Below are positions 15,630 to 22,783 of a stretch of DNA of 35,840 bases, in pieces; the stretch's first letter is position 1, and each line of letters opens with the position of its first letter. The notes under the pieces were generated by a model. The model worked only from the letters and a program-made list of their open reading frames with translations, did no database searches and was not told where the DNA came from. The position numbers were made by a program, and so were the translations under genes. The DNA comes from Microcaldota archaeon (GTDB lineage: Archaea; Micrarchaeota; Micrarchaeia; Micrarchaeales; CABMGC01): NCBI GenBank assembly GCA_021817125.1, contig JAKAWC010000009.1:1-35840 (forward strand). Direction: 5' to 3'.

Positions 15630-16340
15630 TCATCTTTTATTCTTTCGTTCCGACTCGATCTCGCCGTCCCTCATGTACACGCTCCTGTCCGACAGGAGCG
15701 CCAGCTTGGGGTTGTGCGTCACCATCACTATCGTGACGCCGTTCTCCTTCGCCGTCTTGACCATGACCCTCAGTACAGACTCCGACGTCTTCGAGTCCAG
15801 GTTGCCCGTAGGCTCGTCAGCCAGGAGTATGGACGGCGAGTTCACAAGCGACCTGGCGATCGCGACCCGCTGCTGCTCACCACCGCTCAACTCGCTCGGC
15901 TTCTTCGTAAGCTTGTCCCCCATGCCTATCTCACTCAGTATATGCCTGGCACGGTCTATATATTGTGGCGTGTTCCGCCTATCTACCATGAGCGGCAGTG
16001 TCGTATTCTCGAGCACAGTAAGGTAAGGGACAAGGTTGTAGGACTGGAAGATAAAGCCTATCTTCCGATTCCTGAGGACAGAGAGCTCATCATCGTTCAT
16101 CGCCGAGGTGTCGGTCCCGTCTATGAGTATGTGCCCAGATGTCGGCTTATCTAACGTCCCCATAAGGTTCAGCAGCGTGGTCTTCCCACTACCCGAGGGA
16201 CCTAATATGGAGACAAACTCTCCCTTGAGCACAGAGAGCGACACGTCCTTGACTGCGATGTAGTCCATCTTCGCCGTCTCGTAGACCTTCTTCACGCTGT
16301 CCACCCGTATGACCGCATTGCAGTTCCTGTGCACCGCCAT
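15630..16340 (-). CDS. ABC transporter ATP-binding protein, MacB/LolD type
   Basis: A 236-residue ATPase with Walker A GPSGSGKTT at 47-55, a Q-loop in FIFQSYNLVPYL, signature LSGGEQQRVAIAR, Walker B ILLADEPTGNLD and switch His in MVTHN. The combination DEPTGNLD plus SYNLVPYLTVLEN is characteristic of the MacB/LolD/FtsE group. The start is ATG 16340, which overlaps the stop of the pilin-like gene as TGATG. The frame stays open further upstream, but that stretch is only the other frame of the pilin gene. It powers the permease encoded two genes downstream. Confidence 0.95.
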   Translation of the reverse strand: MAVHRNCNAVIRVDSVKKVYETAKMDYIAVKDVSLSVLKGEFVSILGPSGSGKTTLLNLMGTLDKPTSGHILIDGTDTSAMNDDELSVLRNRKIGFIFQSYNLVPYLTVLENTTLPLMVDRRNTPQYIDRARHILSEIGMGDKLTKKPSELSGGEQQRVAIARSLVNSPSILLADEPTGNLDSKTSESVLRVMVKTAKENGVTIVMVTHNPKLALLSDRSVYMRDGEIESERKNKR

Positions 16341-16885
16341 CAGGTCACCCTTGCCGTCACCGATGCCACTATCTGCGTGACGCTTCCGTACCCTGGCACA
16401 GTGTAGTTGAGCCAGACATATCCGAAGTCCCCTCCACCAAGCTGGTTGTAGTTGACCCCCTTGCTTGCATAGCAGATGGAGTTGAATGTGTATCCGGAGC
16501 CGCTGTACATGTTTATCCCTGTACCTGGGCTGGAGCTGGCTGGATAGTAGGATATGCTGTTTGTCACGTAGATGTTCCCGAAGGCAGGCCTGTTGCCTGT
16601 GCCGTTGTAGGCAGCAGAGCACGCGACACCGTAAACGGTTATAGTACCCCCCGTGGCTTGGAAGAGCTGGAGACTGAGCATCCCGTTCGCGCTGATGGCG
16701 AAAGCACCGCACGCGAAGCCTGGCATCGCCGTGCACGACGGCTGCGCAAGGTTGGGGCTCAGGACGCCCACTTTGTAGATTATCGCTACCGCTATAATTA
16801 TAATAATCAGCGCTATGCCGTAAGAAACCATAAAGTCTACGGCGGCTTGCCCCTTCAACCCCTTACCCGATAAAAGTCCACGCAA
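16340..16885 (-). CDS. Archaeal type IV pilin-like protein
   Basis: A 181-residue protein with an archaellin/class III type signal: a short basic leader KGLKG, then QAAVDFMVSYG and an all-hydrophobic helix (IALIIIIIAVAIIYKVGVL), after which the rest is exported. Cleavage is expected between Gly and Gln. The mature part is rich in Ser, Thr, Gly and Tyr with several Cys. TTG 16885 directly abuts the rpsB stop; a shorter TTG start, giving LKGQAAVDF, is also possible. It is translationally coupled to the ABC ATPase, an odd partner for a pilin. No pilus ATPase or platform gene lies in the window. Confidence 0.78.
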   Translation of the reverse strand: MRGLLSGKGLKGQAAVDFMVSYGIALIIIIIAVAIIYKVGVLSPNLAQPSCTAMPGFACGAFAISANGMLSLQLFQATGGTITVYGVACSAAYNGTGNRPAFGNIYVTNSISYYPASSSPGTGINMYSGSGYTFNSICYASKGVNYNQLGGGDFGYVWLNYTVPGYGSVTQIVASVTARVT

Positions 16886-17503
16886 TTACTTCGCCTTCAT
16901 TTCGACCTTTGCTTCGAAATCGGCTATGCTGTGCTTGAACTCCTCATCGGCCTTTATTAACCCTTTCTCTTTCAGGAACTCCCTCGCCAGCAGGAAGTAT
17001 ATCATCGCGAGCGAGCGCCTTCCCTTGTTGTTGCAGGGGATGATAAGGTCGACGAACTTGACCCAGTTGTCCGTGTCGCAGAGCGCCACTATCGGGATGT
17101 TCGTCTTCGAGGCCTCCTTTACCGCCTGCCTCTCGTTCCTTGTGTCTCCAACAAGAAGTATGCTTGGTTCTGTGAAGTCTCCCCTGTTCGGGTTCGTGAA
17201 CACGCCAGGCATGACCCTGCCGCTCATGAGCGTAGCCCCCGTTATCTCAGCGAACTTCTGCGCAGCGCTGATGGCGTAAATCCTGGATGCGGTCACCACT
17301 ATCTCCTTCGGCTCGTACTTCGCCAGCATCCTCGCCGCGGTCCTTATCTTCTGGTCTATCGTGCCGAGGTCCAGCAGGTAAAGGCCATCTTCGCGAACCT
17401 TGTACACGAACCTCTTTGTGCCAGGCGTCTTGGTCTTGGTACCTATGTGGATTCCCACTTCCAAGTATTCCGACTGGTCAACAAGGAACTCATTTGTCAT
17501 CAT
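16886..17503 (-). CDS. rpsB: 30S ribosomal protein S2
   Basis: Small-subunit protein uS2, 205 residues, archaeal length. Family marks are YLEVGIHIGTKTKTPGTKRFVY near the start, LLDLGTIDQKIRTAARML, the PGVFTNP segment, and the late DLIIPCNNKGRRSLAMIYFLLARE. The start ATG ATG follows GGGTG, a fair ribosome binding site. A tRNA gene ends 19 nt upstream on the same strand, so the two may share a transcript. The pilin-like gene starts immediately after its stop. Confidence 0.98.
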   Translation of the reverse strand: MMTNEFLVDQSEYLEVGIHIGTKTKTPGTKRFVYKVREDGLYLLDLGTIDQKIRTAARMLAKYEPKEIVVTASRIYAISAAQKFAEITGATLMSGRVMPGVFTNPNRGDFTEPSILLVGDTRNERQAVKEASKTNIPIVALCDTDNWVKFVDLIIPCNNKGRRSLAMIYFLLAREFLKEKGLIKADEEFKHSIADFEAKVEMKAK

Positions 17504-17522
17504 TACACCCTGAACATAAATT

Positions 17523-17625
17523 TGGGGCCGCCGAGAATTTCATGCACCGCAATCATGCGCCACATTTTGAACTCGGGTCATGTGCTCCCTAAGCACAGAG
17601 CCTGACCAGACTAGCAGACGACCCC
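17523..17625 (-). tRNA. tRNA-Pro (anticodon AGG) with a 29-nt intron in the T-loop
   Basis: Read on the minus strand from 17625. Acceptor stem GGGGTCG pairs with CGGCCCC (17530-17524), seven pairs including one U-G, with discriminator A at 17523. U8, A14, G15, G18G19 and A21 are in place. The D stem has three pairs. The anticodon stem TGTGC/GCACA has five perfect pairs around loop TTAGGGA, giving anticodon AGG at 34-36. The T stem CCGAG (17576-17572) pairs with CTCGG (17535-17531). The T-loop is normal (TTCAAAT) only if 17565-17537 is removed. CCA is not encoded. A34 is very unusual in archaea, so the decoding assignment needs care; the fold itself is convincing. Confidence 0.85.
17537..17565 (-). 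other. tRNA intron at position 59/60 with bulge-helix-bulge splice motif
   Basis: The four exon bases TTCA (54-57) pair with TGAA (17542-17539) near the intron end, flanked by three-base bulges AA/A and AT/T that place the cuts after A59 and before T60. The outer helix is the T stem. The inner helix pairs intron bases TGTG-GCGC with GCG-GTGCA, with one G-G mismatch, and is closed by a six-base loop. This is the complete motif recognised by the archaeal tRNA splicing endonuclease. Confidence 0.85.
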
Positions 17626-19659: not shown

Positions 19660-19671
19660 GACACCTGTATT

Positions 19672-19757
19672 TGCGGGGGGTGAGATTCGAACTCACGCAA
19701 GCACAAAGCTACTGGAACCTCAATCCAGCGCATTTGACCAGGCTCTGCCACCCCCGC
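19672..19757 (-). tRNA. tRNA-Leu (anticodon GAG)
   Basis: Read from 19757. Acceptor GCGGGGG pairs with CCCCCGC (19679-19673), with discriminator A at 19672. The anticodon stem CTGGA/TCCAG closes loop TTGAGGT, giving GAG (19721-19719). A long class II variable arm follows. The T arm is GTGAG, TTCGAAT, CTCAC. The start GCGGGGGTG and end CACCCCCCGCA are the usual archaeal Leu-tRNA ends. No intron and no encoded CCA. It lies 2 nt after the rpoD stop and 12 nt before rpl18e. Confidence 0.97.
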
Positions 19758-19759
19758 AT

Positions 19760-21190: not shown

Positions 21191-21214
21191 TGACAGATGA
21201 TACGGTCTGATACT

Positions 21215-22252
21215 ATGGTGCCCCTGCCGAAGACGCAGAGAAAGCTCCAGTTCACGACGGAGAAACTCTTTAGAAAAGCGTTTTATCAGAAAGCACACTC
21301 AGAGAAACCCTTTGGGAAAGAGTCTCATCCTAAACTTCAGTCAGCGATGGAATACCTGATGACATACGGGTGGGCGATACTCATCATCGCGGTCGTCCTC
21401 GGCGCCCTCTTTCAGCTCGGCGTGTTCAACGCAAACAGCTTCTCGCCGAAAGCGCAGCCTGGTGCATGTCAGATCGTACGGCCTTATGGTCCCGGCACCA
21501 CCACGGATCTTGCTTTGGAGGGCATCTGTAACGGAGAGCTACCGCAGTATGTTGGGACGTTTCCGACCAGCACACGAAATAGCGTACCAGCATCCGGAGC
21601 ACTAGAAAGAACGTGGTTCGGCACTAGCTGGACTATCTCCGCGTGGATAAATGTAGAAGCTACTTCCTCCAATAGTGCGGACATGATAGAAGAGACGTAT
21701 GGGTGCACTTCTGGCATCTTTGAACAGCCTTCGGGCTCTGGAGTCGCATACACAACTAGTATGGCATGGGGCAATGCAGGTCAGTCCTGCTCATCTTGGG
21801 GCACGATTTCAGCAACATCTAATACGCTGCCCCTTAATACATGGGAGTTCGTTACTGGTGTCTTCTATTATGGGCTTCCAGGCAACTGGGTTGCGATATG
21901 TGCCGACGATGTATGTACTAATAGTACATGGACTGGATACACTCCCGCATCGTATAATACGCTGCCCTATAACTTTGTTGCTGGGACCGGAACTACCTGT
22001 TGCGGCGGTGGTCATACATTGACCGTACAGATGGCAAACGTCCAACTTTACAATACATCGCTGACAAACACGGAGATTCTTGCGCTCTATGATGAAGGTA
22101 TCGGCGGCGCACCGGTGAAGCCGCAGAACCTCGTCGTATGGTGGCCGCTCAACGGCAACGCCAACGACTATAGCGGCAACAATAATAATGGTGCGGCAAC
22201 AGCCATCACCTACACCGGCGCCTGGGCCAGCCAGTACACCGGGCCAGTCTAG
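21215..22252 (+). CDS. Large archaeal pilin with a C-terminal LamG-like domain
   Basis: About 345 residues. After an unusually long basic leader (about 40 residues) comes LQSAMEYLMTYGWAILIIAVVLGALFQLGVF, the archaeal pilin-type helix, with cleavage expected just before the QSAMEY segment. The exported part is a concanavalin/LamG-type beta sandwich: TWFGTSWTISAWINVEA, NTWEFVTGVFY, MANVQLYNTSLTNTEILALY and a final VVWWPLNGNANDYSGNNNNG. That fold commonly binds glycans. Eight or more Cys suggest disulfides. ATG 21215 fits the TATA spacing better than ATG 21197. It is probably a surface adhesin assembled into, or anchored like, a pilus. Confidence 0.82.
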   Translation: MVPLPKTQRKLQFTTEKLFRKAFYQKAHSEKPFGKESHPKLQSAMEYLMTYGWAILIIAVVLGALFQLGVFNANSFSPKAQPGACQIVRPYGPGTTTDLALEGICNGELPQYVGTFPTSTRNSVPASGALERTWFGTSWTISAWINVEATSSNSADMIEETYGCTSGIFEQPSGSGVAYTTSMAWGNAGQSCSSWGTISATSNTLPLNTWEFVTGVFYYGLPGNWVAICADDVCTNSTWTGYTPASYNTLPYNFVAGTGTTCCGGGHTLTVQMANVQLYNTSLTNTEILALYDEGIGGAPVKPQNLVVWWPLNGNANDYSGNNNNGAATAITYTGAWASQYTGPV

Positions 22253-22291: not shown

Positions 22292-22783
22292 ATGCAGGGC
22301 GGCGGGAGAATGAAGTTGCAGTCAGCCATGGAATACATGGTGACATACGGCTGGGCGATAATCATAATCGCTGTAGCGCTCGCCGCGCTCGTGGCTCTCG
22401 GGGTATTTAATCCAGCCACGTTCACCGGTCAGGAGTGCATAATGGCAGCGGGCTTTAGCTGTATCAACTACTTTCTGGCATCGAACGGTGTGCTTACTTT
22501 AAACCTCGAGCAGGCGACGCCTACGACGGTCACGATAACCGCTGTCGGGTGCAACCTCAACCTCACCACCGCGAACATGTACGTCGTCCCGAACAACGGG
22601 GTCAACGTGACTATAGGCGGAAACTACACCTTCACCGGCGTGCAATGCTACAACTACGGCACGGCGTTCAGCGGCTCGGTGGGCTCGCTCTTCAAGGGCT
22701 CGCTGGCAGTGAACTATACGGATACGCAGACTGGCTTCCCGCACACGATATACGGCACGCTGATAGCGAAAGTGACGCAGTAG
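22292..22783 (+). CDS. Archaeal type IV pilin-like protein
   Basis: A 163-residue class III signal protein. The short leader MQGGGRMKL is followed by QSAMEYMVTYGWAIIIIAVALAALVALGVF, almost the same helix as in the preceding gene, then an exported domain rich in Thr, Asn and Val with four Cys and several N-glycosylation sequons. It resembles the pilin-like gene at 16340-16885 in its ending (a LIAKVT versus SVTARVT type strand) and in the IMAAGFSC segment. It has its own promoter; the next gene is convergent, with 7 nt between the stops. Confidence 0.82.
   Translation: MQGGGRMKLQSAMEYMVTYGWAIIIIAVALAALVALGVFNPATFTGQECIMAAGFSCINYFLASNGVLTLNLEQATPTTVTITAVGCNLNLTTANMYVVPNNGVNVTIGGNYTFTGVQCYNYGTAFSGSVGSLFKGSLAVNYTDTQTGFPHTIYGTLIAKVTQ

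Follow-up and report, generated by a model that had tools for sequence, protein, structure and literature searches.

The window, a stretch of 35,840 nucleotides of micrarchaeal DNA, contains a proline tRNA gene with the anticodon AGG and an interrupted T-loop. Comparison with its orthologues makes it highly probable that this gene encodes a functional tRNA-Pro of the Micrarchaeota, that its transcript is spliced by the endonuclease EndA between tRNA positions 59 and 60, that AGG replaced GGG once, and that A34 is likely left unmodified. It is also probable, with a little less assurance, that a whole archaeal family has exchanged tRNA-Pro(GGG) for a vertically inherited tRNA-Pro that has a genuine unmodified A34 and reads both CCU and CCC. 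If true, this would be a naturally occurring exception to the rule that archaea lack A34, in a codon box where an engineered tRNA with unmodified A34 reads the two pyrimidines about equally.

Read on the minus strand, the gene is GGGGTCG TC TGCT AGTCTGGTCA GGCT C TGTGC TTAGGGA GCACA TGAC CCGAG TTCAAA [29 nt] T CTCGG CGGCCCC A. The coordinates in Table 1 (17523..17625 for the gene) are base-exact, with G1 at 17625 and the discriminator A73 at 17523. The acceptor stem (GGGGTCG/CGGCCCC) and the T-stem (CCGAG/CTCGG) are both complete, and the T-stem strands are separated by 36 nt instead of the usual 7. An earlier note on this DNA had placed a T-loop interruption at 59/60 of a tRNA-Pro and had suspected that standard tRNA searches could miss the gene, and it was right on both counts. 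ARAGORN folds the spliced form into a full 74-nt cloverleaf, tRNA-Pro(AGG), and gives the unspliced form mispaired stems and a wrong 3' end; in the window it calls the gene as 17551..17622. The Rfam tRNA model does not detect the gene in the window, where it reports only the neighbouring tRNA-Leu, at 19672..19757. Even among the three intron-less orthologues, cmscan at the gathering threshold reports only L168 (50.7 bits) and neither L116 nor L085. The earlier note had taken the gene for an ordinary CCU-reading tRNA-Pro; the intron stood up to scrutiny, and the anticodon AGG, with its A34, had been overlooked.

Table 1. Features of the tRNA-Pro(AGG) locus, in window coordinates.
Feature	Position	Strand	Evidence
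tRNA-Pro(AGG) gene; precursor 103 nt, mature tRNA 74 nt without CCA	17523..17625	-	sequence; ARAGORN on spliced form; orthologues
5' exon, tRNA positions 1-59	17566..17625	-	sequence; ARAGORN; strongly conserved in family
3' exon, tRNA positions 60-73	17523..17536	-	sequence; ARAGORN on spliced form
Anticodon AGG; A34 = 17590, G37 = 17587	17588..17590	-	ARAGORN; pattern match ending at 17587
Intron (29 nt) at tRNA positions 59/60	17537..17565	-	removal gives TTCAAAT and cloverleaf; in 98/104 orthologues
5' splice-site bulge AAA, predicted cut after second A	17565..17567	-	sequence; geometry conserved
3' splice-site bulge ATT, predicted cut after second base	17536..17538	-	sequence; AAT, AGT, GCT, ATT or ACT in 98/98
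Core helix, exon strand TTCA (T54-A57)	17568..17571	-	orthologue comparison
Core helix, intron strand TGAA	17539..17542	-	TGAA in 88/98, pairing variants TGAG/TGGA in 7/98 orthologues
Intron hairpin	17543..17564	-	present in predicted T-arm fold
T-stem 5' strand CCGAG, outer helix of motif	17572..17576	-	compensatory changes, 9 orthologues
T-stem 3' strand CTCGG	17531..17535	-	compensatory changes, 9 orthologues
rps2 (ribosomal protein S2), 19 nt downstream of tRNA-Pro	16886..17503	-	Pfam PF00318, E 8.5e-22; linkage conserved

The anticodon loop, TTAGGGA, provides U33, A34, G35, G36 and G37. G35 and G36 are those of a tRNA-Pro anticodon, and G37 is present in all A34 orthologues. In Archaea all ANN anticodons are reported missing (reviews PMC8007984 and PMC11066159), and pyrimidine-ending codons are read by G34; the gene described here departs from this rule. 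The only archaeal exception in the literature we searched is the tRNA-Arg(ACG) of Methanobrevibacter ruminantium, likewise an encoded A34, which has been ascribed to horizontal acquisition from a different domain (PMC8450103). That case concerns a single species, whereas the A34 of the window's family appears vertical and clade-wide, and takes the place of a G34 gene. We found no description of a clade-wide, vertically inherited archaeal A34 tRNA in the literature searched.

Orthologues were collected from relatives taken whole and by scanning GTDB genomes with a pattern, the scan yielding 110 stretches (nearly all from Candidatus Micrarchaeota among the matches listed); deduplication left 104 distinct genes upstream of rps2. 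The AGG pattern matches 70 of the 79 genomes of the window's family, compared with 0/85 of the sister family in the same order; conversely, the GGG pattern matches 52 of the 85 sister-family genomes and a single one of the 79. Eight family genomes match neither. Relaxing the AGG pattern raises the count in the family to 71/79, and finds nothing in 137 additional genomes from other orders of the phylum; because the pattern presupposes this D-arm, A34 tRNAs with a different one would escape it. The sister family's tRNA-Pro(GGG) occupies the same locus upstream of rps2 and has the same body and the same T-arm introns, and the window's family differs from it in having A34 for G34, mostly A38 for U38, and often G73. 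On a tree of ribosomal protein S2 from 107 loci, the A34/G34 label changes once, on a branch with an SH-aLRT support of 95.

Because the A34 and G34 genes share locus and introns, A34 is best explained by a substitution in place; import of the AGG gene by horizontal transfer was rejected, as locus, body and introns are those of the GGG gene. A sequencing error was rejected as well, given 60 distinct A34 genes and the single change on the tree. We take G34 to be ancestral because it follows the archaeal rule. Thus, one G34-to-A34 substitution, in the ancestor of a Micrarchaeota family, would have turned the ancestral tRNA-Pro(GGG) into tRNA-Pro(AGG); on this evidence, the result would be an archaeal A34 tRNA that is inherited vertically and spans a clade. 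Charging with proline is inferred from the anticodon and the synteny with tRNA-Pro(GGG).

Other positions of the tRNA body changed along with the anticodon. Position 38 is A in 56 of the 60 A34 genes, whereas every one of the 44 G34 genes has T there; the discriminator is G73 in 41/60 A34 genes and 1/44 G34 genes. In G029, a family genome assembled as a single contig, the UGG and CGG tRNAs also end in G73, so that all three proline tRNAs share it; G73 is thus a property of the proline tRNA set of this genome and not of A34 alone, which suggests that it co-evolved with the prolyl-tRNA synthetase. Since orthologues at the same locus in the sister family keep GGG, the two families would allow a matched comparison of what accompanies a G34-to-A34 change in codon use, positions 32/38 and 73, the other proline tRNAs and the translation machinery.

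Eukaryotic tRNA-Pro (AGG to IGG) and bacterial tRNA-Arg (ACG to ICG) also encode A34 and have lost the G34 isoacceptor. These tRNAs depend on ADAT or TadA, whereas the window's family has no conserved deaminase. PF14437, a family that covers TadA and matches 12 of 14 control genomes, bacterial ones included, has no match in the window genome; across the two families it is sporadic and shows no link to A34. PF00383 is also absent from the window genome, and was found in 31 of 78 family genomes (7/19 at ≥90% completeness). Most of the strong deaminase matches, read by eye, resemble dCMP or cytosine/guanine-type deaminases. A conserved TadA was rejected on these grounds, both Pfam families being sporadic, and no deaminase proved to be conserved together with A34. 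Because deaminase domains are absent from most A34 genomes, a TadA-type enzyme is not a general explanation and A34 probably stays an unmodified adenosine. The family thus appears to be a natural case of A34 without TadA.

It is nevertheless conceivable that a TadA/ADAT-like or some other enzyme deaminates A34 to inosine, giving IGG as in eukaryotes. Elsewhere, almost every known A34 tRNA undergoes conversion (PMC11066159), and some family genomes do encode proteins of the deaminase fold. We regard this as unlikely, given the sporadic deaminases (of the 19 family genomes that are at least 90% complete, 12 lack PF00383) and PMC8007984, which states that archaea have no identified A34-specific deaminase. 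Codon use, determined from ~220,000 codons from the tRNA-Pro loci, points weakly in the same direction. For the ratio CCC/(CCC+CCU), the A34 loci give 0.33 and the G34 loci 0.41 (adjusted difference, -0.077 +/- 0.018); in the other seven four-codon boxes the per-locus means differ by 0.03 at most. Inosine would not favour such a shift towards CCU and away from CCC, and an unmodified A34 weakly fits it; the shift is modest, and since it accompanies a single evolutionary change it is confounded with lineage.

An unmodified A34 need not impair decoding of the box. In Escherichia coli, an engineered tRNA with anticodon AGG and an unmodified A34 read CCU and CCC at 56:44, inosine being undetected, and the study's authors could see nothing functional that would have kept A34 from evolving in such boxes (PMC11066159). 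Because that tRNA read both codons, the micrarchaeal one plausibly serves CCU and CCC too: CCU would be read through Watson-Crick pairing and CCC as a near-cognate codon, as the strong G35-C and G36-C pairs permit, leaving CCA and CCG to tRNA-Pro(UGG) and tRNA-Pro(CGG).

The proline tRNAs of the window genome are AGG, two of TGG, and CGG (one sequence, found twice, once at the end of a contig); those of G029 are AGG, TGG and CGG. No tRNA-Pro(GGG) was found in the window genome, which is ~85% complete, or among the tRNA-model matches of G029. Within the family, a GGG match occurs in G020 alone (73% complete; match G020:C84:433-459, L266). Its tRNA is intron-less, has a different body and lies on a 3.7-kb contig; it is either a contaminant or a genuine extra gene. 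A tRNA-Pro(GGG) could in principle exist throughout the family and have been missed, because of an assembly gap or a further intron, in which case the AGG gene would be an extra copy. The GGG tRNA of G020, with its other body type, and the fact that the GGG pattern requires the conserved D-arm leave some room for this. We consider it quite unlikely, as 78 of the 79 family genomes, the single-contig one among them, yield no GGG, the same pattern does find GGG in the sister family, and AGG sits in the very locus that holds GGG there. The scan also returned a single match with a CGG anticodon, a tRNA-Pro(CGG) of Candidatus Marsarchaeota G1 archaeon BE_D (L142) that has the 5' end and D-arm sequence of the micrarchaeal gene; chance, conservation or transfer may account for it.

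The preferred reading, a working tRNA-Pro(AGG), implies that the mature molecule is under selection. All 12 pairs of the acceptor and T-stems are kept in 104/104 orthologues. The T-stem is CCGAG/CTCGG in 95 of these, CCGCG/CGCGG in 7, CCGGG/CCCGG in 1 and TCGAG/CTCGA in 1; thus, in nine genes it has been altered in step on both strands. Among relatives, the D-arm and the anticodon arm are conserved while the intron interiors vary. The gene has unusual features: position 9 is C and the 10-25 pair is absent. Minimum-energy folding is uninformative here, as it gives a cloverleaf for neither the whole pre-tRNA nor the spliced tRNA. It might be argued from C9, the absent 10-25 pair and the two UGG copies of the window genome that the locus is a pseudogene in decay or a tRNA-like element with a regulatory role, CCU and CCC being read in another way, such as U34 superwobbling by tRNA-Pro(UGG). 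The presence of the gene in 71/79 family genomes, with stems kept and compensated and with conservation concentrated in the mature tRNA, makes this very unlikely.

The splice motif is preserved too. The precursor would carry, in its T-loop, a strict 3-4-3 bulge-helix-bulge at 59/60: a TTCA/TGAA core flanked by the bulges AAA and ATT, with the T-stem CCGAG/CTCGG as the outer helix. Two 3-nt bulges around a 4-bp helix at the exon-intron junctions are the hallmark of an archaeal bulge-helix-bulge intron. If each bulge is cut after its second base, 29 nt are removed and the loop becomes TTCAAAT; this restores a canonical tRNA, as judged by ARAGORN on the spliced form. The earlier note had described this core, the two bulges, the T-stem as outer helix and an intron hairpin, and had predicted the TTCAAAT loop; the intron, its position, the core, the bulges and the outer helix recur across about 100 orthologues. 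The 59/60 intron is present in 98 of the 104 genes and ranges from 11 to 89 nt, with a freely variable interior. All four core pairs are formed in 95/98, and the inner helix has on average 2.6 consecutive pairs, compared with 0.55 in shuffled intron interiors. Three orthologues have no intron at all. The preservation of stems and core across some 100 genes, set against the variable intron interior, is strong evidence that both the mature tRNA and the splice motif are under selection.

The motif is not the preferred fold of the naked RNA. In the isolated T-arm, ViennaRNA favours a 6x6 internal loop over the motif core by 1.8 kcal/mol, and minimum-energy folding yields the core in just 9 of the 55 orthologues tested; we assume that the splice-competent fold is selected by the enzyme. 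That the insertion is instead retained, in a tRNA that works with an enlarged T-arm, would suit this naked-RNA fold, in which T-stem and intron hairpin persist and the core is dispensable, but is extremely improbable given motif geometry held in 95/98 orthologues despite free intron length, the three intron-less genes, the presence of a suitable endonuclease, and other tRNAs of the window genome, such as tRNA-Tyr, that also appear to need splicing.

The genome has one EndA match, a protein of 385 amino acids that aligns over residues 8-385 with the ε2 EndA of Candidatus Micrarchaeum acidiphilum ARMAN-2 (PDB 4fz2; E 7e-151). ε2 enzymes consist of a single three-unit chain (~390 residues expected). 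Their specificity is broad (PMC6379350, also the source of the residue numbers). The catalytic Tyr236, His251 and Lys282 are conserved, as is Lys161 of the ARMAN-specific loop (ARMAN-2 numbering). By sequence, this full-length orthologue shows no notable difference from the ARMAN-2 enzyme (PDB 4fz2, 9w2k), so the kind of endonuclease that a relaxed motif calls for is indeed encoded here. It would cut both bulges, and ligation of the ends would restore TTCAAAT.

Positions 59/60 and 53/54 are both among the published noncanonical tRNA intron positions (PMC4090602). As 59/60 is already on that list and the genome has an ε2 EndA, the intron alone is unsurprising; it fits an established class well and is ordinary within it. 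Our literature search on Micrarchaeota tRNA introns turned up only reviews and structural papers. Compared with the noncanonical bulge-helix-bulge introns of Thermoproteales and ARMAN, those described here are alike in position, geometry, short variable intron and the occurrence of several per tRNA. They differ in that the 59/60 intron of one orthologous gene is retained by almost every member sampled in two families, whereas a second intron, at 53/54, comes and goes, leaving a six-nucleotide exon between the two introns in most genes that carry it.

The 53/54 intron occurs in 34 of the 104 orthologues and is 11 to 23 nt long. Its motif has the core CCCG/CGGG (all four pairs in 33/34), the bulges AGN and AAT, and an outer helix of only 2-3 pairs. 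Most of these genes carry both introns, which then enclose the exon TTCAAA (among them L040, L042, L044, L049, L050, L069, L071, L072, L074, L076, L077 and L081); two orthologues have the 53/54 intron only. On the S2 tree, the 53/54 intron requires 17 changes, indicating repeated gain or loss, and the 59/60 intron requires 3. The T-stem abuts TTCA only after the 53/54 intron has been removed, so that splicing would have to be ordered: 53/54 would leave first, and the T-stem could then serve as the outer helix for the 59/60 cut. Archaeal introns so close that removal of one precedes formation of the next motif have been described (PMC8450103). Double T-arm introns flanking a 6-nt exon offer a natural series for studying ordered splicing by ε2 EndA.

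An S2 gene lies downstream of the tRNA in 110/110 loci with an S2 match, at a median spacing of 15 nt; tRNA-Pro and rps2, being on the same strand, perhaps share a transcript. Elsewhere in the window, an intron-less tRNA-Leu(GAG) at 19671..19758 is flanked by ribosomal-protein-like and RNA polymerase subunit-like genes, and three proteins have archaeal pilin-like N-termini (e.g. LQSAMEYLMTYGWAILIIAVVLGALFQLGVF): 16340..16885 (-), 21197..22252 (+) and 22292..22783 (+).

A genome-wide pattern search for further T-loop introns gave four matches, two of which (L268, L270) are not tRNA-like. Intron-like T-loop insertions are seen in two tRNAs of the window genome, L063 (G000:C4:21295-21395, minus) and L059 (G000:C14:784-883, plus), one with the anticodon CCT (Arg) and one Leu-like. 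Finally, both family genomes examined contain a tRNA-Ile with the anticodon UAU, L006 in the window genome (G000:C12:2041-2115, minus) and L219 in G029 (G029:C1:209086-209160); IleUAU is listed as lost in Archaea (PMC8007984).
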